A stretch of 61,158 nt of DNA from Candidatus Bacteroides merdigallinarum. Its GTDB lineage: Bacteria; Bacteroidota; Bacteroidia; Bacteroidales; Bacteroidaceae. The position numbers were made by a program, and so were the translations under genes. The DNA is taken from positions 1-61,158 of the forward strand of contig DXBX01000062.1 in the NCBI GenBank assembly GCA_019116285.1, written 5' to 3'. Within the stretch, counting starts at the first letter, position 1. Each line of letters starts with the position of its first letter. The notes below the pieces were generated by a model, which worked only from the letters and a program-made list of their open reading frames with translations, ran no database searches and was not told the DNA's origin. Below, piece after piece: positions 26,812-48,792 of this stretch.

Positions 26812-28182
26812 ATGGCAGAAACTGAAATGCAAAAAAGCCAAGCGGCACAGCAAGCCGCCGCCTCGGAATTACAGTCCAAGCAAACTGAACAGAAGAAAGA
26901 CATCAGCCAGTTGCTATCCGCGTTCGGTGGCTTCAACGCCATCCGGGGCTTCCTGCCCGACGCCGACAACCTGAACCCCGCCCGCAAGGCGGCCAAGGCC
27001 GTGTTCCTGTCGGACAAACGATTCAAAGAAAAACGTGAAGGCCTGATACAGGACATCAAGGGCTGGCTCGACATCCTGAACGAGGGCCACAACAACGCCA
27101 CGGAATTCGTGGACGCCTGCAAGGCCAAGGAAGAGAAATATACCCGCGTACTGAAGCAGGGCATCACCGACGCACTGTATGCCACTGCCAACCTGGAACG
27201 TTCCTACCGCTCATTGGACGCTTTCTTCAAGTCGGCCAATTCGGACAAAGTGAAGAACCTGCGCCTCATCAATGCCTACAAGGATGACATCGCCGACCCC
27301 GACTCCGGCTTCGCACAAGAGGTGGAGAACCTGTTGCGCAACGGCTTCGACCGCCTGAGCCTGAAGGACTGCTACAGCCTGCTGGTGGTGGCCGGCAGCG
27401 TGTTCCAGGACAAGCCCACCCTGCTGCAATGGGCCAAGATGGCCTACAAGTACAAGGTGATGCTCATCACCGACCACGCCGACGAATACTCGTACGACGA
27501 CCTGTTTGCCAACACCGAGGACTACAAGGACAGCGACGCCGAGCTGCAAAATGTCATCATGACCGCCAACTGGATTGTAGGCCGCGAATCCGAGCAGATG
27601 TCCGCCGACGAGGAGGAAAGCAAGGCTTTCTACATCTATCCCTCGGGCGCACTGGCCGGCAAACTGTATGACGAAAGCGCCAACATGGCACAGGGTGCCG
27701 GCGGCAAGAAGTACGGCACACTGAACGGCATCAAGGGCGTCAAGCTGGACCTCCTGAAATCCGAAATCGCCTCACTGATGGACAACCAGGTCATCCCGAT
27801 GGTCTACTCGGAAGGACGCGTCATGGCCTTCAACAACACCAACCTGTACAACGGCGACAACACGGCCATGAAGGAATATCCCATTGTCCGCGTGTTCGAC
27901 TGGGTGAAGAAAGTACTGATGAACTTCGTGCACGAAGTGGCCTTGGAGAACTGGGATCCCTACAACTCCCCCAAGAACCTGAAAGCACGCATCCAGGCTT
28001 TCCTGAACGACTACAAGGGCTACGGCAACCTGTTCCAGAACTACGAAATCAAAGAACCCACGCAAGACCCCGTCACCAAGCGCATCACCTGCGACATCAG
28101 CCTGACGCCGTTCTACTCCGCCAAGAACTTCATCATCAAGGTGGCAGCAGACAAGAAGGACAAAGAGGCCACCATGGCATAA
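26812..28182 (+). CDS. tssC: T6SS contractile sheath large subunit TssC
   Basis: A 456-residue sheath protein of normal length, 20 bp after TssB. It contains family-like stretches (DKRFKEKREGLIQDIKGWLD; KDCYSLLVVAGSVFQDKPTL) and a C-terminal domain with SLTPFYSAKNFIIKVAA, resembling the phage tail sheath C-terminus. TssB/TssC polymerise around the Hcp tube in the cytosol and contract to drive it out. The low cysteine and high lysine/aspartate content is ordinary. Confidence 0.9.
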   Translation: MAETEMQKSQAAQQAAASELQSKQTEQKKDISQLLSAFGGFNAIRGFLPDADNLNPARKAAKAVFLSDKRFKEKREGLIQDIKGWLDILNEGHNNATEFVDACKAKEEKYTRVLKQGITDALYATANLERSYRSLDAFFKSANSDKVKNLRLINAYKDDIADPDSGFAQEVENLLRNGFDRLSLKDCYSLLVVAGSVFQDKPTLLQWAKMAYKYKVMLITDHADEYSYDDLFANTEDYKDSDAELQNVIMTANWIVGRESEQMSADEEESKAFYIYPSGALAGKLYDESANMAQGAGGKKYGTLNGIKGVKLDLLKSEIASLMDNQVIPMVYSEGRVMAFNNTNLYNGDNTAMKEYPIVRVFDWVKKVLMNFVHEVALENWDPYNSPKNLKARIQAFLNDYKGYGNLFQNYEIKEPTQDPVTKRITCDISLTPFYSAKNFIIKVAADKKDKEATMA

Positions 28183-33000: not shown

Positions 33001-33830
33001 ATGCGGACATCAAGAAGTACATCGACGACCTCATTAAGGACGCCCTGACAAGCACCTTCGTGACATCCTCCCACAAGGGAGACTTTATATTCAAGGAGAT
33101 TGGCACAGGGGAAAACAAAATTCCTCTCCCGAAAGAAATACAAGAGTTCGTTGCAAATTGCGCCACCTACCTCCGCAAGACCGTCGCCGAACACCGCAAG
33201 CTCATCGAGGACTACACCCAATCCCTATCCGGATATCAAATCAACAGCTTGCTGCGCAAGAGTCTGGTGAAAGGGGCAAAATCCGTCACGGGCAACCAAC
33301 AAATCGAATTCAAACTGGATGCCTTCAAATCCGTTACCGACGGCACCGAGACCTACGAACAAGAGCCCATGGAAGTGGCTCCTTTCATGGCCCAGCAACA
33401 GGAATGGATTCAAAAGACCAAGCGCAAGCTCATATTTAGATATATCATCAACTACAGTAATCTTGCATCCGCAAAAGAAATCACCATCAACGAGGAAAAT
33501 CTCATCACAGGAAACGGTTGGGAAGGTTTTGTCAACCTCTTGCACGAACGGGGAAAAGATGACCCAAGCAACAAAGATAACGATCTGCTGAACAAAACCC
33601 TCATGAGCGCCATCAGCACGGCCACCGACAGCCTGCTGGACTTGATAGCCTTCCCGGATTGGAGCAAGTCGAAAGACCTTTGGGGGCCGGAATCGGAAGG
33701 CGAAATCCTCTTCTCGGACAAGAGCGGGCACACCCTCAACTTCGAGCGCGGGCACCTGAACCATACGGTCAACAGCGACAGAGCAGATGACTACCTGCTC
33801 AGAATCAAACTCAAGCTGAAATCCATCTGA
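30096..33830 (+). CDS. vgrG: VgrG spike protein with large C-terminal extension
   Basis: A 1244-residue VgrG (TssI), about twice the usual Bacteroidetes length. Residues about 50-540 correspond to the gp27-like hub. Residues about 566-650 are the gp5 OB-fold (GLGRVRIRYPW, GDEVLVDYDNGNIERPYVVG). Residues about 655-785 form the beta-prism spike (VSISSPFGNVNINAFTGISL, ITGKNVTIKASNNLTITSG). Beyond residue 790 lie about 455 mostly helical, lysine-rich residues with no family I recognise. The extension could be a fused effector, an adaptor-binding region or a spike sleeve. A PAAR-like gene lies two genes downstream. Confidence 0.9.
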   Translation: MSTLILTLTIRPERETEKEGGKSQTPPATTRKVVEQTIVLHSDNTAESTINLMIGNQESSFTLIIKQLNFQKQLYQPCEIQAVLQLDKGDYQEAIPHDTLFATFLEAVVDLQWKKDNDTASISIASNYYVHEVTPRYYRNGTLEINLRIFSRDKKLTLDRFCRTYTAKKLLRDLVLQKEPQNEETGKQDATTTSQTADAGWVNKYNELINNAAVQVATDTHLTFLHYTRTNAENKSETNEYIQPYLVQYNESYYDLIARVANRCGEFLYFEDGKLHLGLPSNNRRNAQKTITQYDSVSFQDLATGITEVKDHYYDGTNPAGTYTQDNYAYNTEITLDDYITIFQQDSFSNFTDEWWGNWGTQILNMISSVLNSTSLSDTLVNWGIAQGTSLIKTPSAVKAKNNSMNEAHITSMPEDQKRPIGSGENTQSNSSLYEASPFSTLLKKADTPYKFQENLNTFFYEFVKRAEKDVSKQAVVVDLGTGYADLKLGELVSLANFTDQTYVVIKLEGQNQITNSETISHFQATLLPIYTYTETTETAKEGKPLQLVIPPYHIVSQIRNSGPQRALVADNSDPEGLGRVRIRYPWQTANSDASPWIRMATPFATNGGGMYFAPSTGDEVLVDYDNGNIERPYVVGALFNGKATAPGNGTRVISSANGHSIVLKDAKSGSGFFSGLWGGMTLLETAIPGISNAFKGAKDLGGGITLTDKYGIYSISMSSEGRKVSISSPFGNVNINAFTGISLSAPNGDIKITGKNVTIKASNNLTITSGENIPDSNTQMLKMAPEEVSRRRKLKEHSASLFFSDMGASIKETTSNLKPELKKSLEKLWDFAKYDSASFATSKLFESVAASYVDLSLLRNIMEAILRPTAGTMLIKSWRFLRLEAGRGTTRIPNNAYTTSGLQRVLNDNHSKMKVTYETIMALSNMVDNWISSILTKHRKAYIARKDLTKLLKDYTLTKKEDQGDRSDADIKKYIDDLIKDALTSTFVTSSHKGDFIFKEIGTGENKIPLPKEIQEFVANCATYLRKTVAEHRKLIEDYTQSLSGYQINSLLRKSLVKGAKSVTGNQQIEFKLDAFKSVTDGTETYEQEPMEVAPFMAQQQEWIQKTKRKLIFRYIINYSNLASAKEITINEENLITGNGWEGFVNLLHERGKDDPSNKDNDLLNKTLMSAISTATDSLLDLIAFPDWSKSKDLWGPESEGEILFSDKSGHTLNFERGHLNHTVNSDRADDYLLRIKLKLKSI

Positions 33831-35703: not shown

Positions 35704-36093
35704 ATGGCAAAACCTGTATGTATGGGTGCTATGCTGCAATGCTCGTTCGGCATGGCCCCCGCCACCCTCAACGTACTGGACCCGATGCGTCCCAAACTGC
35801 AGAGCAAACCAATAGCCAACATCATGGACTTTACGCCGATGGCAAACATCCCGCCTTTCGGCATGTGCCAAGCTCAGACCAACCCTGCCGTCATCGCCGC
35901 CACGGCAGCCGCATTTGGCACCCCCACCCCTGCCCCCTGCATCCCCGTATTCGTGGCCCCTTGGACCCCTGGCGGCAAAGACAAATCGGGATCCTTCCCC
36001 ATGTTGCTGGACAATTGCAAACTGATATGCGCGTACCAAGGACAAATCACCGTCAAGAATCCGGGACAAACCACCAATGTGGACTACAAGTAA
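35704..36093 (+). CDS. PAAR-like spike tip protein (DUF4280)
   Basis: A 129-residue protein of the DUF4280/PAAR-like family. It has MAKPVCMGAMLQCSFGMAPA at the start, CIPVFVAPWTPGG in the middle, and a cysteine pattern (Cys6, Cys13 and later CQAQT, PCIP, NCKLIC) suited to binding metal at the tip. PAAR proteins sharpen the VgrG spike. It lies just after the beta-repeat gene and overlaps the next gene by 17 nt. Confidence 0.85.
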   Translation: MAKPVCMGAMLQCSFGMAPATLNVLDPMRPKLQSKPIANIMDFTPMANIPPFGMCQAQTNPAVIAATAAAFGTPTPAPCIPVFVAPWTPGGKDKSGSFPMLLDNCKLICAYQGQITVKNPGQTTNVDYK

Positions 36094-37408
36094 ATCCAGC
36101 CTTCTCCTGCTCGCCTTGTGGCTGTTTCTGCCGATTGTCTCGCTGAAAGCACAGCAGATGACCGTGAAGGATTTCCGAAAGTCCACCCATCTCTGGCCGT
36201 TGCCCAAACACTATCCCATAGACAAGAAACAAGCCTGGCTAGATTTCTTTACGGCGGAAACGGATTTTTCTTTCCTGGCAGACGGCAAGACACCGATAGA
36301 GGCCCAACCGGGCGAGGGACTGCTAACCCTGCTGTTGCCGCACAAAACTCAGTTTGTGGTAATCCAACATCCCCGATATGGACTATACACTTGGAAGGTG
36401 CCAGGTAAATCCCTTCGGAAGAAAAAGCATTACCAAGCCACCTTGGTCACTTTTGATACCGAAAAGCCCTACGAACTGCAAAAGCAATGGACGGTGTTCC
36501 ATATCTCGCCGAGCAATGCCCTGCTATGGGTGGATTCCATAATGACACCCATCCGAACTGGGACGGAACAATTCTTCCTGCCGTTGGGACAGCATACTTA
36601 TCGCGTTGAGGCTCCCTTCTACCGGACAGTGACGGACACTTTCCACTTAGGCGACAGCAAACGTACTGTCATCCGGACCGAACTACAGCCACTCTACTCC
36701 TACCTGAACGTTCGGACACCGCTCCAAAACGCAGACATCTACGTGGATGGTGAACACATAGGACAAGGAGAAGGAACAAGCGGACGACTGCAAGCTGGCA
36801 CCCATCGACTACGAATCACAGTTGGACATACATGTCTATACGACCGTGACATCACGCTGGACGAATCCGAGAAAAAGGAAATGACCCTGCAACGAAGCGA
36901 CCTGTCTATCCAACCCAAAGAAACGTTTGCCCTGACGCCAGACACAACGGACAGCGTATCACTACAAATAGTCATCCACCGGGCACCTGTAGTCATCAAC
37001 GCTCCCGCACCAGACACGGAAATCCTAATTAACCGCGAGACCATAGGCTATGGCACATGGCAAGGGAAGCTACCTTTAGGCACTTATGCCGTACAGACAA
37101 GAAAAAAGGGACTGGAATCGGACATCACATGGATACATATACCGGACACGCTCAAGAAAGAATTCAGCCTCACCGTCCCCCAAACTACCTATGGAACACT
37201 GAGCATCAGCAGCAACGTAGTCAATGCGGAAGTTTGGATTAACGATTCGTTGAGGGGATACACACCTTGTATCATCGAACGTTTGCCCGCCCAAAAGGCC
37301 TGCCAGATTGCATTGCGGAAAGCAGGCTATAAAGAAGTCCTCCAAACCGTTGTCCCACCGAGAAACAATTTGCTTGAAATAAAACTAAAGTTGAAAAGAA
37401 AGAAATGA
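36077..37408 (+). CDS. Secreted PEGA-domain protein, role unknown
   Basis: A 443-residue protein with a signal peptide (SSLLLLALWLFLPIVSLKAQ). From about residue 200 there are PEGA-like beta domains (YLNVRTPLQNADIYVDGEHI; later EILINRETIGYGTWQGKLPL; VVNAEVWINDSLRGYTPCII), a fold common in surface and stress-linked proteins. The N-terminal 190 residues are unassigned. It overlaps the PAAR-like gene by 17 nt and the next gene by 4 nt. A periplasmic partner of the membrane complex is possible. Confidence 0.6.
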   Translation: MWTTSKSSLLLLALWLFLPIVSLKAQQMTVKDFRKSTHLWPLPKHYPIDKKQAWLDFFTAETDFSFLADGKTPIEAQPGEGLLTLLLPHKTQFVVIQHPRYGLYTWKVPGKSLRKKKHYQATLVTFDTEKPYELQKQWTVFHISPSNALLWVDSIMTPIRTGTEQFFLPLGQHTYRVEAPFYRTVTDTFHLGDSKRTVIRTELQPLYSYLNVRTPLQNADIYVDGEHIGQGEGTSGRLQAGTHRLRITVGHTCLYDRDITLDESEKKEMTLQRSDLSIQPKETFALTPDTTDSVSLQIVIHRAPVVINAPAPDTEILINRETIGYGTWQGKLPLGTYAVQTRKKGLESDITWIHIPDTLKKEFSLTVPQTTYGTLSISSNVVNAEVWINDSLRGYTPCIIERLPAQKACQIALRKAGYKEVLQTVVPPRNNLLEIKLKLKRKK

Positions 37409-38133
37409 AACTCAACATAGAGCTCATCCAAGACGAATACGACCACACGCTGAGCCGTCGCGTGTCTCTTCTGATGTTCTGTTACCTGAATCTCTGCACC
37501 AAGGCCGAACCAGCCGCCCTGCTCTCCGTACCAGTGACAATGGGAGGTAAATCCTACGGGCTGGAAGAGGTGGCAGAAGTCATGCTGCTGAACAAGGATC
37601 AGTTCATTTTGGTACCCAAAAAGAATGCCTATATCTCCGTCATCCTCAGAGGACTGATGAAAGAACATCCCGAATTCAAGAACGAAATCAAAGCTTTCGA
37701 TGGAGAAAAACTTCTTAATCCGGATGATGTGGAAGATGAGAACCCTATACTGCTCATACTCTCTACCATTCCCGAAGTGAACAAGGACCGATACGACGCC
37801 CTGCTGAAAGCTGTCGACATCTTCTACGACAAATGCAAGGTAGAGATGGAAAAATACAAGGCCAACTACACGGCCCAACTAGTACAGGCTCTAGAGAACA
37901 ATACCTCCGAAAATCCGGACGAGGCGAAGGATAAACTAGAGCAGACCAACGACACTTATACAAAAATGCGCGATGAGTTGAAAGAGAAGAAAATAAAAGA
38001 AGTAGAAGACGCCTACCAACGCTACCTTGCCAAAGAAACCGAGGAAGAAAACCTTCGGAAAGAAGAGGAAGAAGCCCGAGGAGAAAAAGCCGGATTTAGC
38101 TTGAACATGCTTATAGAGGACAATGAAGAATAA
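37405..38133 (+). CDS. Acidic helical cytosolic protein, unknown
   Basis: A 242-residue protein without signal peptide or membrane segment, starting inside the previous stop (ATGA). The first 130 residues look globular. Residues about 130-225 are a long charged helical stretch (KDRYDALLKAVDIFYDKCKV, DTYTKMRDELKEKKIKEVED), with a weak resemblance in order to ribosome-recycling-factor helices. The tail is very acidic. Its end overlaps the E1-like gene by 11 nt, so the two are translationally coupled. I infer it is a partner, adaptor or substrate of the E1-E2 pathway, or a baseplate accessory. Confidence 0.5.
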   Translation: MKLNIELIQDEYDHTLSRRVSLLMFCYLNLCTKAEPAALLSVPVTMGGKSYGLEEVAEVMLLNKDQFILVPKKNAYISVILRGLMKEHPEFKNEIKAFDGEKLLNPDDVEDENPILLILSTIPEVNKDRYDALLKAVDIFYDKCKVEMEKYKANYTAQLVQALENNTSENPDEAKDKLEQTNDTYTKMRDELKEKKIKEVEDAYQRYLAKETEEENLRKEEEEARGEKAGFSLNMLIEDNEE

Positions 38134-39274
38134 CCTTTTCCGTCAAGACATAGTGGCCGACGCGCGATTTATGGTCGTGGGCTGCGGCGCGCTGGGCAAC
38201 GAGGTCCTGAAGAACCTAGCCTTGATGGGAGCCCGCCACTTAGTGGCTGTGGACTTCGACCGGGTGGAGGTGGGCAACCTGAATCGTTCCATCCTCTTTA
38301 CGCGCCAGGATGCCGAGACACACCGCCGCAAGACCGAAGCCGTAGCCGAACGGCTGGTGGCCATGAATCCCAACCTAGACCTGACAACACTGGACGGCGA
38401 CATTGCTTATGACATCGGTCTAGGCTGGCTGCGCCGTACAGACGTGGTAATCGGATGTGTGGACAGCCGGTGGGCCCGCTATTGCATCAACCGTCTGTGT
38501 ATGCGTGCCGGCATCCCATGGGTAGACGGCGGCATCAGCCAACTGGAAGGCACTGTGCGCGTATTCAGACCCGGTATAAACTGCTATGCCTGCAACCTAG
38601 GGCCTGAAGGAATGGACGAACTGCGCCAACGGATGCCATGTTCGGGTATCATCCGACAAGAAGAAGCAGAAGGGCACGCACCCACCACATCGCTCATTGC
38701 CTCCATCATCGGAGCCGTACAAGTGCAGGAAGCCTTGAAACTGGTTCATCCGGCCGAATTGGCAAATGGCGTATTCACCTCCCTTTGTGGGCAAATGTTT
38801 TACTACGAAGGACGAAATCTTAGCACACGAACGGTGGCCTTCCAAGCTTATGATGAAGAATGCCCTATTCATGATAAATGGGAACCGGTAAAAGAGACAG
38901 ACATACCCACCCACATTACCATAAGAGAGGCATTTAAACGCCTGGCTCATCTGCTAAACACCTCCAATATTGAAATCGAACTGACGGATGATTGTTTCGT
39001 AGACTTCATCACTGATCGAGAAACCGAACACAACATCCCCGTAATGCGTCCAGGCAGACAAGTGTCTTTGTTCGTTGAACAAGACGAGACATTACATGGT
39101 CTTCCACGAACCCGCTTCTACCAACACGAATATCATATAATTGACAAACATTTCCCCTACGCAGACCTCACCCTGCAACAATTGGGTCTGCCGACTTGGA
39201 GCGTACTACCGGTAACAGCCGGCAATAGGCGACATTATATAGAACTGGCCGCAGACAAGCGGACAGACTTTTAA
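38123..39274 (+). CDS. E1-like ubiquitin-activating enzyme (ThiF/UBA fold)
   Basis: A 383-residue E1-superfamily protein. The adenylation domain shows GCGALG (20-25), the acidic nucleotide-binding pair Asp44/Asp46, NLNR (52-55, with the arginine finger) and Asp114 in GCVDSRWAR. A zinc site is suggested by Cys154/Cys157 and Cys247/His250. Cys173, in MPCSGI upstream of HAPTTS, is the best candidate for the thioester cysteine. After residue 260 a separate domain ends in a beta-grasp-like pattern (YADLTLQQLGLPTWSVLPVT), possibly an E2-binding UFD-like domain. It would adenylate the Ubl C-terminus and pass it to the E2. It overlaps the preceding gene by 11 nt and is followed by baseplate genes. 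Confidence 0.88.
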   Translation: MKNNLFRQDIVADARFMVVGCGALGNEVLKNLALMGARHLVAVDFDRVEVGNLNRSILFTRQDAETHRRKTEAVAERLVAMNPNLDLTTLDGDIAYDIGLGWLRRTDVVIGCVDSRWARYCINRLCMRAGIPWVDGGISQLEGTVRVFRPGINCYACNLGPEGMDELRQRMPCSGIIRQEEAEGHAPTTSLIASIIGAVQVQEALKLVHPAELANGVFTSLCGQMFYYEGRNLSTRTVAFQAYDEECPIHDKWEPVKETDIPTHITIREAFKRLAHLLNTSNIEIELTDDCFVDFITDRETEHNIPVMRPGRQVSLFVEQDETLHGLPRTRFYQHEYHIIDKHFPYADLTLQQLGLPTWSVLPVTAGNRRHYIELAADKRTDF

Positions 39275-39285
39275 CACAGAGCAAG

Positions 39286-40074
39286 ATGAATATTCCCGGA
39301 AATCTATCAGAAATAAGTGCGGAAATGCTCCTTGACTACCTATATCCTGAACTGGAACAGAAATGGATAAGCCAGTACAAAGGAACATTCTACCGCAACT
39401 ATAGCCCCGATATCATGGAACTGGAGCCAGACATTCCCCAAGTAGGGCTCTCGCGCGACGGCTTTCTGAAGCTACTGCCGCAAGGGATATTAGCCAACGA
39501 AAACGAACTGAAAGACGACGACCGAACAGAAAACTACGATGAGATGCAACGACGCCTGCGCATCCTGAAAGAAGCTTTCCTACCCTTCGATGTATTTCAT
39601 TTCCGCAGCCGACTGGCCGCCGAACGGCAATTGTCGGAATTACTGAACCAGAAGTTGGCATTTATCCTAAAACACTTCTTCGGCATCGTTCTAGAAGAGG
39701 AGAACAATCCTTACTTACGCGAAGCTGCCGTATTGTTGCCTTATAGTTGCTCACTAAAAGGCGACTTTAAATTTGTACGCAACCTGCTAGCTACCCTCTT
39801 GGAATGTAAAGTGAAAATGGTCGAAGGGCGCTACAGAACCAATAGCCGTATGGAGCATTGGATTCCACAAGTGAAATACTACCTGCTGATCCCATCGCTC
39901 ACAAGGAAATCCTATCATGACTTAATTAAAAAAACCACTCCTCTCTTCCACTTCATTCGCGAATGGTTCATCCCTTTCGACATCCACTGCGAAATTCAGC
40001 CTAAAGAAGCTAGCAACGAAAGCCAATTGAACAACCGGCTTATCCTGGACTATAACGCTTGGCTGACTATCTAA
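39286..40074 (+). CDS. Probable T6SS baseplate protein, TssG-like
   Basis: A 262-residue cytosolic protein 11 bp after the E1-like gene and directly before tssK. Its RDGFLKLLPQGIL stretch and helical pattern (FRSRLAAERQLSELLNQKLA) fit a small baseplate wedge protein. With TssK, TssE and TssF present nearby, TssG is the missing wedge subunit, so the call depends on elimination and order. The size is plausible for TssG. No catalytic motif is seen. Confidence 0.5.
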   Translation: MNIPGNLSEISAEMLLDYLYPELEQKWISQYKGTFYRNYSPDIMELEPDIPQVGLSRDGFLKLLPQGILANENELKDDDRTENYDEMQRRLRILKEAFLPFDVFHFRSRLAAERQLSELLNQKLAFILKHFFGIVLEEENNPYLREAAVLLPYSCSLKGDFKFVRNLLATLLECKVKMVEGRYRTNSRMEHWIPQVKYYLLIPSLTRKSYHDLIKKTTPLFHFIREWFIPFDIHCEIQPKEASNESQLNNRLILDYNAWLTI

Positions 40075-40109
40075 CTAATTATTAAACAGAAACAAGCACC
40101 TTCACGAGA

Positions 40110-41246
40110 ATGGATATAAATTCAAAAATTAACTGGCAACCGGGGATGGAACTCACAGCAGAGACATTCATCTCGCTGGATCGTACCTTCGACCTACGGC
40201 AACAAGTAGCTATGCGGCTAGCCGCCGGAGGCATGAGAGCCGGACGAATTCCCTACGCAGAATTCTGCAACAAGGGCGTATTTGTCCGCAACTCCTTCCA
40301 GATGGATCGCTTCCGATGCACGGCACTGCTACCCTCAGGCAAGATTCTAGACATAGACGAGCCCATGTCCATCAAGATTCCCATGCTGTACGGCAACCTG
40401 TACTACCTGACCGTGGGACCGGGCACAGGAATAACCGAATTTGAATATGAGGGCGTACCTTTCATCCGTCCGGAACATACCTATGCCATCCAGACAGCGG
40501 AAGAATTGGCCGAAGCAGACCGATTGCCAGTGGTGCGCTTCAGCGTCACAGACGGCGTTTTCAACTTAGACGAGAACTATATTCCTCCCTGTCTCAGCCT
40601 GGAATCCGAGCCTCGCTTTGCCGACTATCTGACAGACTATACTGTTTGGATGGAAAAGCTGGCCACCCACGCGAATTTGGAGGAAGGGGAAGGCAAACGT
40701 CTGTTCATGCGGTATCTCTTTCTACTGAAAGGCTACCACCTTCAGAATCCGCTGCAAGATTTCATTCTCTTCACGCAGGAAATGGCTCAGGCCATTGACT
40801 ACTATGTGATGACACCCCACAACGGACACCGAGACATCCCGCAACCGGCTTGGCATGACATACAGCGCTGGCTGGAATGGCTCAAGAACTATTTCGACGG
40901 AGCCGTCAGTATCCTAAACACCGTAGTGCTGGAAGACCACAGCATCAACTTCGATGAACTGAAGGCACAAATCAAGGCTGAAATCTACGAACGGCTCAAT
41001 CCCGAACTCTACGAGCGACTGATAACCGACCTCAAGGAGAACTTGCACCGCGAACTGAACGAGGAACTGATGAAAGCACTGACGGAATACTTCGACAGCA
41101 CCATGAAACCCGAGCTGTACGAACGCCTGTCCGCTGAATTGGGCCAGCAACTGCGCGATGACCTCTACAAGGCACTTTACGATGCCCTCTACAACGCACT
41201 CTATGTACCGCCCGAAAAAGAAGAAGAATTCATTCCCCTCATCTAA
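40110..41246 (+). CDS. tssK: T6SS baseplate protein TssK
   Basis: A 378-residue protein with the TssK-like start INWQPGMELTAETFISLDRT and a beta-rich N-terminal half (LLPSGKILDIDEPMSIKIPM; YLTVGPGTGITEFEYEGVPF). TssK trimers join the wedge to the membrane complex. The C-terminal quarter is an unusual acidic helical repeat with two near-identical PELYERL blocks (about residues 299 and 335) and a DLYKALYDALYNALY end. This tail may replace the usual membrane-contact domain. It lies 6 bp before tssE. Confidence 0.8.
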   Translation: MDINSKINWQPGMELTAETFISLDRTFDLRQQVAMRLAAGGMRAGRIPYAEFCNKGVFVRNSFQMDRFRCTALLPSGKILDIDEPMSIKIPMLYGNLYYLTVGPGTGITEFEYEGVPFIRPEHTYAIQTAEELAEADRLPVVRFSVTDGVFNLDENYIPPCLSLESEPRFADYLTDYTVWMEKLATHANLEEGEGKRLFMRYLFLLKGYHLQNPLQDFILFTQEMAQAIDYYVMTPHNGHRDIPQPAWHDIQRWLEWLKNYFDGAVSILNTVVLEDHSINFDELKAQIKAEIYERLNPELYERLITDLKENLHRELNEELMKALTEYFDSTMKPELYERLSAELGQQLRDDLYKALYDALYNALYVPPEKEEEFIPLI

Positions 41247-41252
41247 AACGAC

Positions 41253-41714
41253 ATGGGCTGCCTGACTTTACCTTTACAAATCACTAACGGAGAAATTGCA
41301 CGGGAAAAAAATATCAAGGAAGGCATTGATGCTTTTCTCTCGCTACTAATTGCTTCGCCACAGGATGGATGCGTAGCCGAACGCGACTTTGGATTCATTT
41401 TCAATAACCTGCGCTTTGAAATCCTGAACGAGAGCGAAGGCGTAATCTACGATTCGATGCAGGACGAAGAATCATCCGACGTCCATACGACAGAACTCTA
41501 TGAAAAGAAAATTTCCGGCTCGTCCAAGAATCTGAACACTTTTGCAGCCGAACTAAAAGAAAGCATCCGGAAATACGAGAAACGCCTACAGAACCCGACC
41601 GTCTCCATGACTTATATCCGCGAAGAACGCCTAATATATGTGACCGTAAAAGGAATTATCGCCGTCTCTGGCGAGAAATACCAATATACGACCACCATTC
41701 GAATCTGGAATTAA
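41253..41714 (+). CDS. tssE: T6SS baseplate protein TssE (gp25-like)
   Basis: A 153-residue protein of the GPW/gp25 family. The key region is CVAERDFGFIFNNLRFEILN, equivalent to the family's ERxFG stretch, followed by ESIRKYEKRLQNPTVSMTYI and closing strands RLIYVTVKGIIAV. gp25-type proteins start sheath polymerisation on the baseplate. Spacing to tssK and tssF is 6 and 4 bp, so all are one transcript. Confidence 0.9.
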   Translation: MGCLTLPLQITNGEIAREKNIKEGIDAFLSLLIASPQDGCVAERDFGFIFNNLRFEILNESEGVIYDSMQDEESSDVHTTELYEKKISGSSKNLNTFAAELKESIRKYEKRLQNPTVSMTYIREERLIYVTVKGIIAVSGEKYQYTTTIRIWN

Positions 41715-41718
41715 AACT

Positions 41719-43398
41719 ATGAACCGTACGATATTTGAAACCCGGCAACGGGCCGAAGAGCTACTGAAAGAGGCTATAGCCATTTGGCGTCAAGGCGCAC
41801 AGAGCGATGCCTTGGAAGGCTTAGAAGAAGATCCTGTATTCTTCTTGTTGATGTCGGCTCTAGCCTACCAGGCCAACAACTTCGACAGCGAACTGGAACG
41901 TTTGAAAACGGATGTGTTAGAAGATTACCTCCACACACTCCGTCCCTACGGATTGGGGCATGCCATCCCAGCTGTGGCTGTCGTCAAAGCGCCTTTGCAA
42001 GCCAACATCGCCGAACTGAATGTCAATGCTAACAACCTGTTCACTTTGGGCAACACAGGTTACACCTTTATGCCCCTGCTGGCTACCAAGGCCGTAAACC
42101 TCAGCATTCAATCTATTGTCCGCTTGGACGGACGCCGGTGGAAGGTATCCCTCAAGTCCCCGCATATCATTTCGGACCTATCTTACTTTTCATTCGCTAT
42201 CAAAGACTCCATCTTCAGTACATTATCGGTCAGTATCAAAGGAAAAGTCCTGCCACTTATCAGCCCTTGGCAATATGCCGACCTGCCTTTTAACGAATGT
42301 TTCTCGGTAGACAACCTGCTCTATAACCGCCAACAGGTGTTCAACCCTACCCCCATAGGACTAGATTTATTCGCACAACAGAACATCCGTGTTTATCACG
42401 TGCGCCCTTGCAACCTAAAGCGCTTCCTGCCTACTGAGACAGATCAATTGGAATTAGTCTTCGAATTCTCAGAAATAACAGACACGTTCGTCTTCGATAA
42501 ATCCAAACTGGTACTGAACGTGCTCTTCCTGGCCAATGTCAAGCAGAACACCGTTAACCTATCAGCCAAGAACCCGGTATTTCGCGTGGACAGCAACCAC
42601 TTCCTCCACTTGCTACGCCCTACAGAGGAACAATTGTTTGGTAACGTACAGATAGACATCCGGCACGTGGCCGCTGACCGCTTCAACCTCGGAAGCCTGC
42701 TTCGACTCTTACAAAGCCTTATCGACAAGTATGACACTGATTTCTATGCTTTTCAAGCTTTAGAAGAATGGAAAGGAGATCGCACCATGACCCAACTGCG
42801 CAATATCTTGGCTAAACTTGCCGAGAAAGTTCGTAACAACGAGAATAGCTTGAAATCGGGCATTTACCTGATGCTGCACCGACCACAAATCTCTAGCCAG
42901 GAAAACATGAGCGTAGCCGTCAACTACTTGACGACCGACGGCGCCCGCGTAAACAGCTTTCTCACTCGAGAAAGCGTCCTGCAAGCAGCCTATGGTTTCG
43001 ACAACAACCAAATCGCCCTCATTGCTCCGCCTACACCCGGATATGACGAAGTGGACAAGGAAAAAGCCAAAGATGAACTGGCACGCTACTACATGACCAC
43101 CCAAGACCGCATCGTAACACCATCAGATATTAAGCATTTCTGCCTGGCAGAACTGATGGCACGTTATGGGATAGGCAAGGAACTGATCAAATCCATCAGC
43201 ATCGGGCATCGCCCGCAACAGGTCTACCGCGGCTGCGGATACGAAATCGTGGTAGACATTCTGCTGACTGACAACACATTCATCAAGCGCAACTTCGAAA
43301 TACTCATCCCGCAAGTAGAAATCCTACTAAGCAAGATGCTACAGGTAAGAAGCACAAACATATATCCCATTGACGTCAATATCCAAATTGATAAGTAG
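41719..43398 (+). CDS. tssF: T6SS baseplate protein TssF
   Basis: A 559-residue protein of normal TssF length. It opens with LKEAIAIWRQG and EDPVFFLLMSALAYQANNFD, and its C-terminal part has DRIVTPSDIKHFCLAELMAR, matching the gpJ/TssF signature, then a beta-domain (GCGYEIVVDILLTDNTF). TssF with TssG forms the wedge that links TssE and the hub. It is followed after 70 bp by the ubiquitin-like gene. Confidence 0.9.
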   Translation: MNRTIFETRQRAEELLKEAIAIWRQGAQSDALEGLEEDPVFFLLMSALAYQANNFDSELERLKTDVLEDYLHTLRPYGLGHAIPAVAVVKAPLQANIAELNVNANNLFTLGNTGYTFMPLLATKAVNLSIQSIVRLDGRRWKVSLKSPHIISDLSYFSFAIKDSIFSTLSVSIKGKVLPLISPWQYADLPFNECFSVDNLLYNRQQVFNPTPIGLDLFAQQNIRVYHVRPCNLKRFLPTETDQLELVFEFSEITDTFVFDKSKLVLNVLFLANVKQNTVNLSAKNPVFRVDSNHFLHLLRPTEEQLFGNVQIDIRHVAADRFNLGSLLRLLQSLIDKYDTDFYAFQALEEWKGDRTMTQLRNILAKLAEKVRNNENSLKSGIYLMLHRPQISSQENMSVAVNYLTTDGARVNSFLTRESVLQAAYGFDNNQIALIAPPTPGYDEVDKEKAKDELARYYMTTQDRIVTPSDIKHFCLAELMARYGIGKELIKSISIGHRPQQVYRGCGYEIVVDILLTDNTFIKRNFEILIPQVEILLSKMLQVRSTNIYPIDVNIQIDK

Positions 43399-43468
43399 AC
43401 AACCCGGGACACCAATTTTTGTGCCTCTTTCTAGTTTATCCCACTTTATCCCACACTATAAATATAAT

Positions 43469-43792
43469 ATGGAAAACGAAGAATTCTTTCTGAACATCGT
43501 GTATAAAAACAAAAGCGTAAAGTTCCGGGTAGTCAACCCACAGGCACCCCTGGCTACGCTGATGCACAATCTGCGCCATGCCATCAGCAGCGATGGCAGG
43601 CTGATATTTGATTTCCCCTCCATAGACGAAACGGGGGCCCCGTTAGACTATTTCTTCGGCAAAGAAGACGACAAGGTGCACGAGGTACGCATCCTGCGCC
43701 CCCGCATCGGCCGTACCGACCAGACACTGGAAGATTATGGAGTAAATAATGGAGACACGATATTCCTGATACCCGACCCCTTCCCCGGTTAA
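43469..43792 (+). CDS. Ubiquitin-like protein with exposed C-terminal glycine
   Basis: A 107-residue protein. The start at 43469 gives MENEEFFLNIVYKNKSVKFR, a first beta hairpin as in ubiquitin; an upstream frame adds only low-complexity sequence. A helix follows (LATLMHNLRHAIS). The last strands read TLEDYGVNNGDTIFLIPDPF, closely like ubiquitin's TLxDYN..xxxTLxLV order. The protein stops straight after PG, so Gly107 is already free and needs no processing. It would be the modifier activated by the E1-like protein. Three base pairs separate it from the E2 gene. It resembles YukD-type and ubiquitin-type beta-grasp folds; no paralogue is seen nearby. Confidence 0.8.
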   Translation: MENEEFFLNIVYKNKSVKFRVVNPQAPLATLMHNLRHAISSDGRLIFDFPSIDETGAPLDYFFGKEDDKVHEVRILRPRIGRTDQTLEDYGVNNGDTIFLIPDPFPG

Positions 43793-43795
43793 GCC

Positions 43796-44395
43796 ATGCC
43801 GAAACCAGATAATTTCACTCCCCGGCAACTCAGTGGACGGAACCGCCGCCTGCTTCATGAATGGAAGGCGATGGATGAACAACTGAGCGAGAGGAACGAT
43901 ATCCGTTACTCCGTCTTGAAATACAATGCAGACGGACTGCCGGTAAGCTACCAGATAGACTACCGGCTGACCAGCATCTGCGGTGTGGAACAGGAAGATC
44001 AATTGGACAACCCAAACATTCCCAACCCACCTCGCTTCGCCGATATATTCGTCATGCAGATAACGATTCCTCCGGGCTATCCGTGCGTAGACGCCGCGCC
44101 CTCCTACCGTTTCTTGACGACCGGCCCCGATGGCCAGGACATACCCCATCCCTGGCACCCCAACATTCGCTACCATGGAGCCTTTGCGGGACGGGTCTGT
44201 CTCAATCAGCAAGATACCTATGCGGACATTGTCTGGGCCGTGAAAAGGATTGCCGGATACCTGACTTATGAGCGCTACCACGCAAAAAACCAACCGCCCT
44301 ATCCGGAAGACCTGACAGTGGCTCGCTGGGTTATTGAACAAGGAGAACCCAATGGATGGATTTTCTTCAACCAAAAGAACAACTGCACTCTGTGA
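43796..44395 (+). CDS. E2-like ubiquitin-conjugating enzyme
   Basis: A 199-residue UBC-fold protein. Landmarks in order: strand VMQITIPPGYPCVDAAPSYRF (the E2 PxYP region), HPNI at 121-124, and catalytic Cys135 in AGRVCLNQQD. A helix (DIVWAVKRIAGYLTY) and the C-terminal helical region follow. In classical E2s the cysteine lies 8 residues after HPN; here it is 12, a small insertion. It would take the Ubl from the E1 as a thioester. The gene starts 3 bp after the Ubl stop. Its own stop overlaps the next, membrane-module gene by one base. Confidence 0.85.
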   Translation: MPKPDNFTPRQLSGRNRRLLHEWKAMDEQLSERNDIRYSVLKYNADGLPVSYQIDYRLTSICGVEQEDQLDNPNIPNPPRFADIFVMQITIPPGYPCVDAAPSYRFLTTGPDGQDIPHPWHPNIRYHGAFAGRVCLNQQDTYADIVWAVKRIAGYLTYERYHAKNQPPYPEDLTVARWVIEQGEPNGWIFFNQKNNCTL

Positions 44396-45588
44396 TGGGC
44401 CGAATGAGTTACGTAACAATTAAAATGCGGAAAACAATGGTTATGCCGAACAAATTTCTCATCATCTTCTTCAGCCTGCTGATACCCTTGACCCTGCAAT
44501 CCCAGACGGTCAAGCACATCACGCTTACAGCCCGAGATGCATATACCGGACATATTGCCCTATCAGAAGACTCCAAAGATCTGGACCTGATAGTCAAGTT
44601 CATCTTCAACGAACAGGAAAATCGCCTCTCCGTCACCCTATTGTCCTACCGATCTTTGTTTGTATTTCAGGAAGACGTCCGCTATGGGCAGGCCGTGAAA
44701 AAAAGGAAGTTGCGTCCGGATCGCTTGCCTTATGTAGTACCCACCGATCCATCCATCCGCATCAAAGCCTCCCGAGATTTCCGCCAACAGCTGCCCCGCC
44801 CCCGCCGTAAATTTATCTTCAAGCGGTGGTTTGGATGCGACGGACTACAACCTATCCCCCAAGAGTATCAATTGGTAAACGACTATATCGAACAAGATTT
44901 CGACATCTTGCACGGACGAAACGAAATAATCGTTTCTCTGCACCACCTCCTCGTAATGGATTCGGAGCAAACAAAGAACGGCCAAGCACGCTATCAATGG
45001 ACTTTCTTCAAAAACCTGGACCTGGAATACCACATCACACTGCAACGAGACCCCTGTCTGGGCGCCGAGACCGCCCTGCAACAAGCAAGCCGGGACACGG
45101 AAAGCATCCGAACGGCCTATAAGAACCTGCGAAACAGCTATCCGCATGAAACCGCGAACACAGAAGAACAATTCAACCAATTCACGGAACTCAAACAGAT
45201 GCTGACGAAACAATTCCCCCGAAAAGCCATAGAGAGCGACTGTCCGGATGTGCAGCAGCAGCTAGAAACCTACAACACATACGTCGACTCCATCGCCGCT
45301 ATGCAATGCCAACTGGTACAACAGGTAAAGACCGCCACCGGCATTGACCCCGACCTGCTACTCACTAGAGCACGGATGATAGACAACATGGTAAGCCGCT
45401 GGATCGGCAGTACGGACCCCATTGAACGCCGAGACTTAAATCTGATGTGCCACAACATCATCAACGAAATGAATGCCCAAATAGAGGTATGCGGCTTTGC
45501 CAACGAAGAACAGAAGAAGGCCGGACGCGTGTTCTTCAAAGCCCGCCAGTATTACCAAACCACCATCAACGCGAACAAACAGCCATGA
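44395..45588 (+). CDS. Secreted T6SS membrane-module protein, unknown
   Basis: A 397-residue protein if started at 44395, whose ATG overlaps the E2 stop (TGATG). An in-frame ATG at 44425 gives a cleaner signal peptide (MVMPNKFLIIFFSLLIPLTL) and may be the real start. The mature part has beta strands (VKHITLTARDAYTGHIALSE), then a helical section with several cysteines. No family is recognised. Position suggests one of the Bacteroidetes-specific TssN-R-type envelope components replacing TssJ/L/M. It overlaps the next gene by 4 nt. Confidence 0.5.
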   Translation: MGRMSYVTIKMRKTMVMPNKFLIIFFSLLIPLTLQSQTVKHITLTARDAYTGHIALSEDSKDLDLIVKFIFNEQENRLSVTLLSYRSLFVFQEDVRYGQAVKKRKLRPDRLPYVVPTDPSIRIKASRDFRQQLPRPRRKFIFKRWFGCDGLQPIPQEYQLVNDYIEQDFDILHGRNEIIVSLHHLLVMDSEQTKNGQARYQWTFFKNLDLEYHITLQRDPCLGAETALQQASRDTESIRTAYKNLRNSYPHETANTEEQFNQFTELKQMLTKQFPRKAIESDCPDVQQQLETYNTYVDSIAAMQCQLVQQVKTATGIDPDLLLTRARMIDNMVSRWIGSTDPIERRDLNLMCHNIINEMNAQIEVCGFANEEQKKAGRVFFKARQYYQTTINANKQP

Positions 45589-46385
45589 AAGGAGCCTTAC
45601 TTATCATATGCCTTTGCTGCCTCTCCCCGGTACTCCCGGCTGTGGCCGATGACCACGGCGATGACGAAATCGTGGAAAAGCTGAACAGCTATATCCGGGA
45701 CTACGCCCGGCTGGGCACAGGGCTGGAAAGAGCCTCCAAGAACCAGCTCAAGGAAACCCAAGCACAACTGGAGCGGCTGAACGTAAAGTACGAGTTCTAT
45801 TGCCAAGCGCAACAGGACTTCATCGTCGCAGACGATTCATTGATGAACCTGATGGCCGAATACCACGAGTTACGGCAGCAGACCGACAACACCATCCGAC
45901 AACGGGAACAAGTCCTCCAAGCCTACCAAACCATTCAAGAGGCGGAGCAGCTGATTGCCTCGAAAGACTCTCTCTACAGCCAGATGCAGAAAAGGGCCCT
46001 GCTGCTATCGCAAACGCCCAAGACCGCCCAGCAATTGGAAGCCTTGAAGGGAGAGGAACAACTGGTCTTCACCGAGATAGAGAAGCAGTTCAACGCTGCC
46101 AAAGAGGCCATTGAGGATGTCCCTCTCCTGGAAAACCGCCTGAAAGCAATGGAAACGAAATACATTGAACTGAAGAACGCCTCGACCCGGATACAGGAGG
46201 CCAACTACACACCTTTCTTACAACGCATCAAGGACTACCTGCTGAGCATCGCGGCCGTGGGATTCATTTTGATGGTCATCAACATGATCCACACCAAGAT
46301 ACAAGCCTTCAGACAAATGCGCGAAAGCGCCAGACAGATGAAAGAGATGATGCGCAAGGCGAACAATGACTACCCACAAATTTAA
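45585..46385 (+). CDS. Coiled-coil envelope protein of the T6SS locus
   Basis: A 266-residue protein. It has a signal peptide (MKGALLIICLCCLSPVLPAV) and a long periplasmic coiled coil (about residues 25-205, e.g. NQLKETQAQLERLNVKYEFY). A transmembrane helix lies near residue 217-236 (LLSIAAVGFILMVINMIH), and a short basic cytosolic tail ends the protein. This layout suits a trans-envelope strut. It starts inside the preceding stop (ATGA). A TssO/TssQ-like role is possible but unproven. Confidence 0.55.
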   Translation: MKGALLIICLCCLSPVLPAVADDHGDDEIVEKLNSYIRDYARLGTGLERASKNQLKETQAQLERLNVKYEFYCQAQQDFIVADDSLMNLMAEYHELRQQTDNTIRQREQVLQAYQTIQEAEQLIASKDSLYSQMQKRALLLSQTPKTAQQLEALKGEEQLVFTEIEKQFNAAKEAIEDVPLLENRLKAMETKYIELKNASTRIQEANYTPFLQRIKDYLLSIAAVGFILMVINMIHTKIQAFRQMRESARQMKEMMRKANNDYPQI

Positions 46386-46392
46386 CGAAGAA

Positions 46393-48792
46393 ATGATGAA
46401 CAAGCGAATGATAGGCCTATGGCTGCTCATGCTTGCCGTACTGACCGGATGCACCGGCACGTGGAACACGGCAAGCATCGAAGAAGTGACCTCGAACAAA
46501 AAAGAGAACATCAAGGTGACCCACATACAGTTCTCACCGGACTACAAGCACATCACCCTGGACCTCGACCTGCCCTCCGACCTCAACAACACCCTGCTGT
46601 CCGACACAGACAGCGTACACGTCGTCATCAAGGAAACCACCCGCGGCACAACGGGCAACCAGAATTACTATGACGCAACGCAACCCCAACTGACCAGCAT
46701 CCGCAATGTGGTGAAGGAGGAAACCACCCGGCAAAACCTTAAAATAGTGGCCTTGGTGGACCTCACCCTACCCCAACCGATAGTGGACGAACAGCGGGAA
46801 GCCTTGCAACAGATAAAGAACGTGTATGCCGACGACGAGAAAATACATGTCAGCTTCATGTATGACTGGCAGACCACCAAGCCCATCCCGCTCACCAATT
46901 ATGTGCTGAGAAACTACTTCAACGCCAAGGAAGGTTCGGGCAAATACCTCTTCCGCAGCATCGTAGAGAAGAGAAACGAAATCCTGAATCCCGACCTCTT
47001 TCCCAGCACAGACAACCTGGCGATGCTGGTATTCTCGGACGGCGAGGTCTACGGGGAGGATGACACCCCTTCGGATCCGGACTACTACCAATACAAGGCC
47101 GAACTGGACAAGGCCTATCCGAGGCTCGTGGCAGACACCCTGTCCATCTACTACGTGAACTGTGCCACAAACCCCAATGGCGTGAACATAGAGGCCACTG
47201 GCACCCTGCAACGGATGTGCAAGAATTATGACGGCCTCTACCAGGAACACTTCAACTGGTCTCAACTGGAGGCGGACTTCAAGCGAGCCTTCCAATTAGA
47301 CTATTGCGACTATCGCCTGACCCTGACCAACCCCAACCGGAAAATCTATAAAGGCAATGCACACACCATCCACATCGAGCTTCATGGCCGCGGCGACCAA
47401 CTGATGGCATCGGGCAAGACTGTCTACAAGCTGGGCAATGTCTACAGCCCCATTATCGTCAACGGCGACAAGCAGTTGCTGGTCCTCATACAAGGCTTCG
47501 TCATCATGGCCTCCTTGTGGCTGCTCATCTTCCTTATGGGGCAGTTCATAGTGCCCGCCATCCGCTACCACCTGTTCCGGTCGAAATACGTCGTCCGCTA
47601 CACAGGCAAGGGAATGAGCGCAAGCGGGCATCCCGTGGCCGACATGTGCTACTTCTGCAAGGCCCCGTTCGAGGAGGGCGATGAAATCGTAGTGAAGTGC
47701 ACCCACACCATGCATAAGGACTGCTGGGACGAGAACAACTACCACTGCCCCGAGTACGGCCGCCACTGCAAGGAAGGAGCCTACTACTACAACAGGCACC
47801 AGCTGTTCGACTCGCACAACGCCACCCCCTCCACACGCTGGCTTTTGGTGGGATGTCTGTCCGCCTTTGTGGCATGGGTGGCCTTCACGTCGGGCTACAA
47901 CCGCATCTTCCCGGAAGGCTGGCTGGATGGCATCGTAGACAGCCTGTACAACCTCCGTCTGGGCTTGTCCATCTCCGACGAACAACTGTCCGACTACAAG
48001 GAACAGCTCAACGTCATGCCCTATTTCGGCTTCTGCATCGGCCTCTGCTATTCGCTGTTCTTCAGCATTTCCTCCGAAGGCTGGAAGCAGTCCACCCAAC
48101 GCGTCTGGCTCATCCTGCTGCGCACGGTCATCGGTGCCGTAGGATGCTGGATGTTTTTCGCCGTGGAATGCGTGCTGGCCATCGCGCTGGGCATCACCAC
48201 CTATTCCTACCTCATCGACTGGATTCCATGGACGCTGTCCAGCACCCTCATCCTCTATCTGCTGGCGTGGCGCACGCAAAGCCGGGTGGACAAGCGGGGC
48301 ATTCTCATCTCGTGCATCGCGGGTGTATTCTCCATGAACATCTGGAACTTCCTCTTCATGGATTCCGTGCTGGACTACCGTCTGCTGCTGCTCTTCAGCT
48401 TCGAGTTCTATTCCGTCACCTTGTCTGCCTGTATCTCGCACACGGCTTTCCGGTCCGAGCACTTTTTCCTGGGCATCTCCAAGGGAGTCAAGCCCATAGA
48501 CATCGCACTCTACAAATGGTTCCGTTCCAACCCGCACCGGGTGGTCACGCTGGGCAAATCCGTGGACTGCGACCTGCAAATCACGTGGGACATCCGCAAC
48601 CCCATCAGCCCCATACAAGCCGAGTTGCGGATGGAGAAAGGCCACATCAAAATGTATGCACTGGAGGAGGGCGTATTTGTCCACGGCAAGCCATGGCCAT
48701 TGGGCAAGGGACTGAAACTATTCCATGGAACGAGCTTCACCATCGGCGATACTTTGTTCACCTACAAGGAAAAGGACCTTAACCATTTCTGA
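46393..48792 (+). CDS. vWA-RING-FHA membrane protein, candidate E3 ligase/T6SS hub
   Basis: A 799-residue protein. The start at 46393 puts a signal sequence with lipobox LTGC at Cys20. Residues about 116-290 are vWA-like: a degenerate metal site DLTLP after KIVALV, and VFSDGEVYGED. A membrane helix at about 361-390 leads to a cytosolic zinc finger with ligands Cys419, Cys422, Cys436, His438, His441, Cys444, Cys452 and Cys459. The spacing is that of RING-H2 except that the last pair is CX6C. Five or six more helices (about 481-680) follow, and an FHA domain (about 715-795, LGKSVDCDLQITW, EGVFVHGKPWPLG) ends the protein. The vWA part recalls TssR-type proteins. RING plus E1/E2/Ubl neighbours suggests an E3; FHA suggests phospho-control. 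Confidence 0.75.
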   Translation: MMNKRMIGLWLLMLAVLTGCTGTWNTASIEEVTSNKKENIKVTHIQFSPDYKHITLDLDLPSDLNNTLLSDTDSVHVVIKETTRGTTGNQNYYDATQPQLTSIRNVVKEETTRQNLKIVALVDLTLPQPIVDEQREALQQIKNVYADDEKIHVSFMYDWQTTKPIPLTNYVLRNYFNAKEGSGKYLFRSIVEKRNEILNPDLFPSTDNLAMLVFSDGEVYGEDDTPSDPDYYQYKAELDKAYPRLVADTLSIYYVNCATNPNGVNIEATGTLQRMCKNYDGLYQEHFNWSQLEADFKRAFQLDYCDYRLTLTNPNRKIYKGNAHTIHIELHGRGDQLMASGKTVYKLGNVYSPIIVNGDKQLLVLIQGFVIMASLWLLIFLMGQFIVPAIRYHLFRSKYVVRYTGKGMSASGHPVADMCYFCKAPFEEGDEIVVKCTHTMHKDCWDENNYHCPEYGRHCKEGAYYYNRHQLFDSHNATPSTRWLLVGCLSAFVAWVAFTSGYNRIFPEGWLDGIVDSLYNLRLGLSISDEQLSDYKEQLNVMPYFGFCIGLCYSLFFSISSEGWKQSTQRVWLILLRTVIGAVGCWMFFAVECVLAIALGITTYSYLIDWIPWTLSSTLILYLLAWRTQSRVDKRGILISCIAGVFSMNIWNFLFMDSVLDYRLLLLFSFEFYSVTLSACISHTAFRSEHFFLGISKGVKPIDIALYKWFRSNPHRVVTLGKSVDCDLQITWDIRNPISPIQAELRMEKGHIKMYALEEGVFVHGKPWPLGKGLKLFHGTSFTIGDTLFTYKEKDLNHF

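Follow-up and report, generated by a model that had tools for sequence, protein, structure and literature searches.

The 61,158-nucleotide window analyzed here, contig DXBX01000062.1 of Candidatus Bacteroides merdigallinarum (assembly GCA_019116285.1), carries a type VI secretion system (T6SS) whose genes are interleaved with those of a putative E1-E2-RING cascade for a ubiquitin-like modifier. The window is contig C46 of its source genome (G000), which comprises 2.7 Mb in 93 contigs and is 80.6% complete. A single-strand gene run extends from 23828 to 48792, with tssH as the first gene and the gene for a large RING-like membrane protein as the last. Between them lie, in this order, the genes for TssB, TssC, two Hcp proteins, VgrG, a PAAR-like protein, a PEGA-domain protein, a ribosome-recycling-factor-like (RRF-like) protein, the E1-like enzyme, TssG, TssK, TssE, TssF, the modifier, the E2-like enzyme and two exported proteins, designated the 44356 and 45585 proteins (Table 1).

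The E1-like enzyme contains an ATP loop of the form G20-x-G-x-x-G25, in which G20, G22 and G25 are invariant, as are D44 and D114. C154/C157 and C247/H250 are probable Zn ligands, and C173 is a candidate catalytic residue. In an alignment with MoeB, the enzyme shows a C-terminal extension of ~130 residues (about 255-383) that MoeB lacks. Its best NCBIfam match is ThiF (TIGR02356, 2.6e-36), at 124.9 bits against a cut-off of 275.25, followed by MoeB (PRK05690) at 98.2 bits against 266. MoeB (1.2e-27) and BubCD (9.5e-12) are among the PDB matches, and E1-E2 models of PADLOC, which states no cut-offs, are matched over part of their length (best 1.3e-15). The AlphaFold model of the modifier (best pLDDT, the predicted local distance difference test score, 86.2) is a beta-grasp fold on which ubiquitin overlays, and its fold matches include a bacterial complex of E1, E2 and ubiquitin-like protein (8tyz) and Caldiarchaeum ubiquitin (6fno). 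Its last residue is Gly in all 82 aligned rows, which end in PFPG (68/82) or PIPG (14/82), and every T6SS-linked modifier examined terminates at Gly. For the E2-like enzyme, 653 homologues were found in the protein database at E <= 0.001, and the HPN motif and catalytic Cys are present in the 120 matches listed. Both HPN and C135 are kept in 84/84 rows, a count that is partly circular because the locus search patterns included both.

The RING-like protein, the candidate E3, begins with a lipobox-like C29, followed by a vWA domain (about 115-313), a helix (370-408), a RING-H2-like region (428-468), further helices (488-694) and an FHA domain (about 700-808). Its putative Zn ligands are C428, C431, C445, H447, H450, C453, C461 and C468. 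Each is kept in 78/78 to 79/79 filled rows, with the exception of C468 (78/79).

A first-pass annotation of this DNA had proposed an E1 fold with intact ATP motifs, a beta-grasp protein ending in Gly, a UBC-fold protein with HPN and Cys135 and a RING-H2-type membrane protein, all four encoded in one same-strand operon with T6SS genes. These assignments hold, with the membrane protein best described as RING-H2-like: PF00899 is matched above its cut-off, the conserved residues are those described above, and the four genes are interleaved with tssG, tssK, tssE and tssF. Its coordinates and spacings are correct, except that the overlap it gave between the E2 stop and the next gene hinges on the start codon chosen; the 44356 protein probably starts at 44395-44443. 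The same annotation had named three findings that would speak against it, and all three were sought. An E1 belonging to the sulfur-transfer families MoeB or ThiF is contradicted by scores far under the cut-offs and by the extra C-terminal extension; a modifier of unrelated fold, by the beta-grasp model; and homologous loci without the modifier, the E2 or the catalytic residues, by related loci that keep them all.

The machine to which the cascade belongs is of T6SS subtype iii in its sheath and tube, with TssC (PF17541) and TssD (PF17642) of the Bacteroidota type. The baseplate also agrees with this subtype, since TssK, TssE, TssF and TssG are recognized by family profiles common to loci with TssN and by the same neighborhood. 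TssF received no name from Pfam or NCBIfam. For TssG, the open reading frames adjoining TssK in TssN-type loci, which the window family profile matches, were themselves compared with the TssG family PF06996, scoring above its cut-off in locus L109 and below it in L111.

Table 1. Features of the T6SS and cascade gene run in the window
Feature	Position	Strand	Basis and remarks
TssH/ClpV-type AAA+ ATPase	23828..26293	+	PF07724 and ClpB_D2-small
TssB (sheath)	26327..26791	+	VipA 0.066 (weak); precedes TssC
TssC (sheath)	26812..28182	+	PF17541 2.4e-105; 353.4 bits, cut-off 25
Hcp/TssD, two genes	28219-28611 and 28653-29051	+	PF17642 6.3e-30 and 2.1e-21; 104.1 and 76.5 bits, cut-off 25.8
VgrG spike with long C-terminal part	30096..33830	+	PF04717 7.5e-22
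PAAR-like DUF4280 protein	35704..36093	+	PF14107 3.1e-29
PEGA-domain protein	36077..37408	+	PF08308 1.8e-20; present at 63/80 loci
RRF-like protein	37405..38133	+	PF01765 6.6e-10, over cut-off; present at 53/80 loci
E1-like enzyme, ThiF-fold adenylating domain	38123..39274	+	PF00899 9.5e-48, over cut-off
TssG-like baseplate protein	39286..40074	+	Family profile matches open reading frames adjoining TssK in TssN-type loci (2e-16)
TssK (baseplate)	40110..41246	+	TIGR03353 1.9e-8, below cut-off; C-terminal half coiled coil by eye, conserved PLI tail
TssE (baseplate)	41253..41714	+	TIGR03357 0.0083 (weak), below cut-off; between TssK and TssF in related loci
TssF (baseplate)	41719..43398	+	Family profile matches open reading frames adjoining TssE and TssK in TssN-type T6SS loci
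Ubiquitin-like modifier	43469..43792	+	107 aa from ATG 43469; ends PFPG
E2-like enzyme (UBC fold)	43796..44395	+	WHPN and C135
44356 protein	44356..45588	+	Signal peptide by eye; adjoins E2 in 79/80 loci, one miss at locus end; no Pfam family above cut-off
45585 protein	45585..46385	+	ATG 45585; signal peptide, helical middle, C-terminal membrane helix by eye; in 76/80 loci, misses at locus ends
RING-like membrane protein, candidate E3	46366..48792	+

The linkage of cascade and T6SS was surveyed in 80 named loci from Bacteroidales or Bacteroidia, the best of 116 confirmed genome loci found by patterns that included HPN and the E2 Cys. Loci L005 and L006 are apparently the same records as L030 and L034, and row counts of 82, 84 and the like therefore contain two duplicates. 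The order tssF, modifier, E2 occurs in 80/80 loci, with a PEGA gene placed between in L084. Around the E2 gene, the modifier and tssF are present at all 80 loci, tssE and the 44356 gene at 79, tssK at 77, tssG and the genes for the 45585 and RING-like proteins at 76, and the E1 gene at 75; by position, each missing core gene would fall outside a locus end. The places of vgrG and hcp vary, as far as the 10-kb flanks reach.

As the E2 patterns make E2 conservation partly circular, the survey was repeated from the TssF and 44356 proteins. The TssF seed matched 15 of 393 genomes of the order. Five of these are of the window type (G000, G082, G213, G277 and G423), each with E1, modifier, E2 and RING; in G277 the cascade-type T6SS is spread over three contigs. 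Eight others (G055, G135, G179, G285, G320, G322, G343 and G427) have TssN and/or TssO, TssP or TssR and no cascade in the stretches read, and an E2 search of the whole genomes of six of these eight found no match. In some TssR-bearing genomes, what the TssF query matched was a TssF-like open reading frame near TssR. The 44356-protein seed matched 7 of 399 genomes of the family, four of which appear to repeat named loci; all seven systems reached have WHPN..C in the E2 and a Gly-ending modifier, and the RING motif is found in the window and in all six with a longer stretch read. The first-pass annotation had asked whether the E1, E2, modifier and RING genes always travel with this type of T6SS; their linkage to it is fixed in the 80 loci, and both further seeds agree. 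Judged by sequence, the cascade is real and a constant component of T6SS of this type. It occurs across many genera but is rare in the genome samples, the E2 being found in 5/295 genomes of the order and 4/61 relatives, with one free-standing case in each set.

In the two remaining TssF-seed genomes, G308 and G293, the stretches read (L135 and L136, respectively) contain no TssN/O/P/R and no cascade genes. These present a further T6SS-iii arrangement with TssG, TssK, TssF, VgrG and PAAR (and Hcp in L135), next to two adjoining genes that look kinase-like by eye, one with GxGGMGRVFKG.

Profiles of TssN, TssO, TssP and TssR, the membrane complex of T6SS-iii, found no match in the window, the 80 loci, the loci around 44356-protein matches or the divergent loci, and the control loci were positive. 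At the level of whole genomes, TssN scored above its cut-off in 1 of 13 with a cascade-type T6SS and in both positive controls; it was not found in G000. The absence of TssN/O/P/R from cascade loci points to the anchor and baseplate, rather than the sheath, tube or an effector, as the probable site of action of the cascade.

Relatives of the cascade also exist apart from the T6SS. In G052, G491 and G585, genes for E1, modifier, E2, a membrane JAB peptidase and a vWA-RING-FHA protein form a single run without TssC, which is present in the 7 T6SS-type genomes of the same search. Long matches to the vWA-RING-FHA protein among 395 genomes of the phylum were limited to G491 and G585 besides the window; the remaining 19 matches were short and lay in the vWA part or so. 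A JAB protein with the motif HxHP...S..D is encoded in all three free-standing systems and in all four divergent T6SS (G082, G213, G277 and G423). None was found in the 80 named loci, nor in G000 and its relatives G007 and G013 by a search with a positive control. The free-standing modifiers end in IIAGYLVV (G052), VPGGK (G585) and VPG (G491); those of G052 and G585 could thus need trimming. Two other features were noted in G052: an SrfB-family protein (PF07520, 1e-213) near the end of its free-standing run, at L008:11382-14423, and a second JAB protein on the contig of that run, at L098:9924-10790.

In the E1 tree, the rows without JAB lie on one side of a branch with a support of 100. The backbone order is free-standing systems, G082, G423, G213 with G277, and the window clade, broadly as in the TssG and TssF trees. 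In these latter trees, the TssN-type rows join G082, and two rows with neither type join G423. The trees are quick and unrooted, with hand-picked window-clade rows (19 for E1, 11 for TssF and TssG), and the TssF tree is without G213. They fit co-inheritance of cascade and baseplate; an origin of the cascade before TssN-R would agree with them too, though they do not show it. Insertion of a foreign cassette was considered and rejected, in view of the interleaving with tssG-K-E-F and of an E1 tree broadly parallel to the baseplate trees. A free-standing cassette does exist, however, and the earlier statement that the cascade genes are co-translated with the machine "rather than inserted as a cassette" cannot be kept as worded, given the E1-modifier-E2-JAB-RING operon without TssC in three genomes.

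The reading that we consider probable is that the cascade conjugates the modifier to a part of the machine, likely at the inner membrane, and thereby licenses docking of the baseplate, taking the part that TssN has in other systems. The TssN of B. fragilis is described as a membrane hub that resembles EccD, binds TssK and has a cytoplasmic beta-grasp domain (PMC10781749, consulted in part). The E1 would adenylate the terminal Gly of the modifier and hand the modifier via C173 to C135 of the E2. The RING protein, with its vWA domain on the periplasmic side and its RING and FHA domains on the cytoplasmic side, would recruit the charged E2, with either this hub or the baseplate (TssK, TssE) as the possible target. 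A free beta-grasp protein attached on demand would build the docking platform for which the TssN hub has a built-in domain. Among conserved lysines considered as candidate acceptor sites, TssE K86 (82/82 rows) and TssK K196 (79/80) stand out, with no further support. As no JAB was found in the window clade and the modifier already ends in Gly, attachment would proceed without trimming, and no JAB of the locus would take the mark off again. Conjugation, target and docking are all predictions from sequence. A bolder version appears doubtful. In it, ubiquitylation would build one branch of contractile weapons: a membrane RING ligase would attach the ubiquitin-like protein covalently and so make the baseplate docking platform for which TssN elsewhere has a fused domain, and the cascade would be ancestral to T6SS-iii, with TssN-R as its later replacement.

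Several observations weigh against docking by conjugation. G1033, the one cascade genome with TssN, carries it on another contig (C17; L188, L189), where it is part of a second T6SS that has TssR, P, O, G, H, F and E of its own; both types thus occur within one genome, which implies that they are separate machines able to share a cell. Homology of the modifier, RING, 44356 and 45585 proteins to TssN/O/P/R was sought and rejected, as comparisons between profiles of 3-11 sequences gave probabilities of <=1.0 percent; in the same set, the comparison with TssG was circular, the TssG profile having absorbed window-type rows. Since these comparisons gave nothing, the case for a TssN role depends on which genes are present or absent and on a fold that is shared. 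The C-terminal half of TssK in the window clade is unlike that of TssN-type TssK, but in G082, which has the cascade, it is TssN-like by eye, and the difference thus follows the baseplate lineage, not the cascade. As G000 is 80.6% complete, the failure to find JAB and TssN in it counts for less. RING profiles score weakly (best E 0.016, Pfam below cut-off), six residues separate the final pair of Zn ligands, and only 57/80 rows have Lys or Arg directly after the final Cys. The C-terminal domain of the E1 matched nothing relevant in the PDB (best E 0.43).

Other explanations place the cascade elsewhere in the machine or outside it. The cascade may modify an effector or the tube (VgrG, Hcp, PAAR), or the modifier itself may be loaded and injected, so that loading rather than docking is controlled. 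The presence of vgrG, PAAR and hcp in the same operon and a Lys at the final position of the PAAR-like protein in 65/67 rows speak for this; however, the neighbors that vary least are genes of the baseplate and membrane, vgrG and hcp lie at different places in different loci as far as the 10-kb flanks reach, and the candidate E3 is a membrane protein, which makes control of loading unlikely. Slightly less likely still is a modifier that serves as a non-covalent structural beta-grasp subunit like the EccD domain, with the E1 and E2 as relics or acting on another target, since the catalytic residues of E1, E2 and modifier are almost invariably kept while the RING protein is merely 31-38 percent identical across the same clade.

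The E1 matches noted above give some ground for two further alternatives. Partial matches to PADLOC models and a match to BubCD would suit an anti-phage system of the Bil, Bub or CBASS Cap2 type that lies within the T6SS operon by chance. This is very improbable, as no PADLOC E1-E2 model is matched at E <= 0.1 by the modifier, the E2, the RING protein or the 44356 protein, the E2 found no match in phage or plasmid records, every locus of sufficient length has the cascade genes interspersed among tssG-K-E-F, and the E1 and baseplate trees are broadly parallel. With ThiF and MoeB as its top NCBIfam matches and MoeB among its PDB matches, the E1 could also form a sulfur carrier pair of the ThiF/ThiS or MoeB/MoaD type with the modifier, leaving E2 and RING structural. 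That can be given very little credence: besides the scores and the C-terminal domain, there is always an adjacent E2 with HPN and Cys, and JAB occurs in the divergent systems. A sulfur-transfer role of the E1 itself was rejected on the model cut-offs and on the presence of the E2 and RING proteins.

Some neighboring features deserve mention in their own right. The RRF-like gene overlaps the E1 gene by 11 nucleotides. A NusG-family gene at 23257-23805, 22 nucleotides 5′ of tssH, could encode an antiterminator for the long operon. VgrG extends ~600 residues past its OB-fold domain, possibly as an effector or adaptor part. TssK of the window clade has an E-rich tail ending in PLI (41127-41246), preceded by repeated LYERL-like units.

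In comparison with known systems, the locus resembles T6SS-iii of Bacteroidota (GA1-GA3, with the TssNQOPR complex; PMC10781749 and PMC4714493, both consulted in part) in its TssC (PF17541), TssD (PF17642), TssK/E/F/G, VgrG and ClpV homologues. It differs in the absence of TssN, TssO, TssP and TssR from the loci read and in having E1, modifier, E2 and the vWA-RING-FHA protein instead; a vWA domain occurs on a membrane component in both, namely TssR in T6SS-iii and the RING protein here. Neither ThiF nor ring finger nor von Willebrand is mentioned in the main text of PMC4714493. In the portion consulted, no T6SS is reported for nine Alistipes genomes, in contrast to the 6/80 named loci that are labeled Alistipes sp. 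or Candidatus Alistipes.

The component set, the extra C-terminal domain of the E1, the HPN motif of the E2 and the RING candidate E3 are like those of predicted bacterial E1/E2/JAB(/RING) operons, including those of PMC1779556, for which the portion consulted describes no link to T6SS. The membrane JAB of such operons is found in the divergent relatives, whereas the window clade is without it. Burroughs, Iyer and Aravind reportedly predicted bacterial E1/E2/JAB/RING operons with YukD-like modifiers in 2011. Bil, Bub and CBASS Cap2 follow the same logic of E1 fold, E2 and modifier, with BubCD among the E1 matches, but the window E2 and modifier match no PADLOC model; to our knowledge, these systems include neither a RING protein nor a T6SS. 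The ubiquitin operon of Caldiarchaeum subterraneum likewise clusters E1, E2, RING and modifier, but is archaeal, and we know of no injection machine associated with it. A passage of PMC11354881 describes E1, E2, RING, modifier and deubiquitinase in one cluster in that organism.

A search of the open-licence PMC literature found no E1-E2-RING cascade in a contractile machine. If the proposed role is true, bacteria would employ E1-E2-RING conjugation in the assembly or licensing of a secretion machine, beyond antiviral defense and cofactor synthesis, and gut and rumen Bacteroidales would have a T6SS type defined by the cascade. It would also provide a natural series from a free-standing cascade with JAB to a machine-bound cascade without it, and would open to test the role of bacterial RING-containing ubiquitin-like operons and the anchoring of T6SS without TssN-R. 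Bacterial E1-E2-RING-JAB operons and T6SS-iii were each known before; what appears to be new is the fixed union of a ubiquitin-like cascade with a T6SS.

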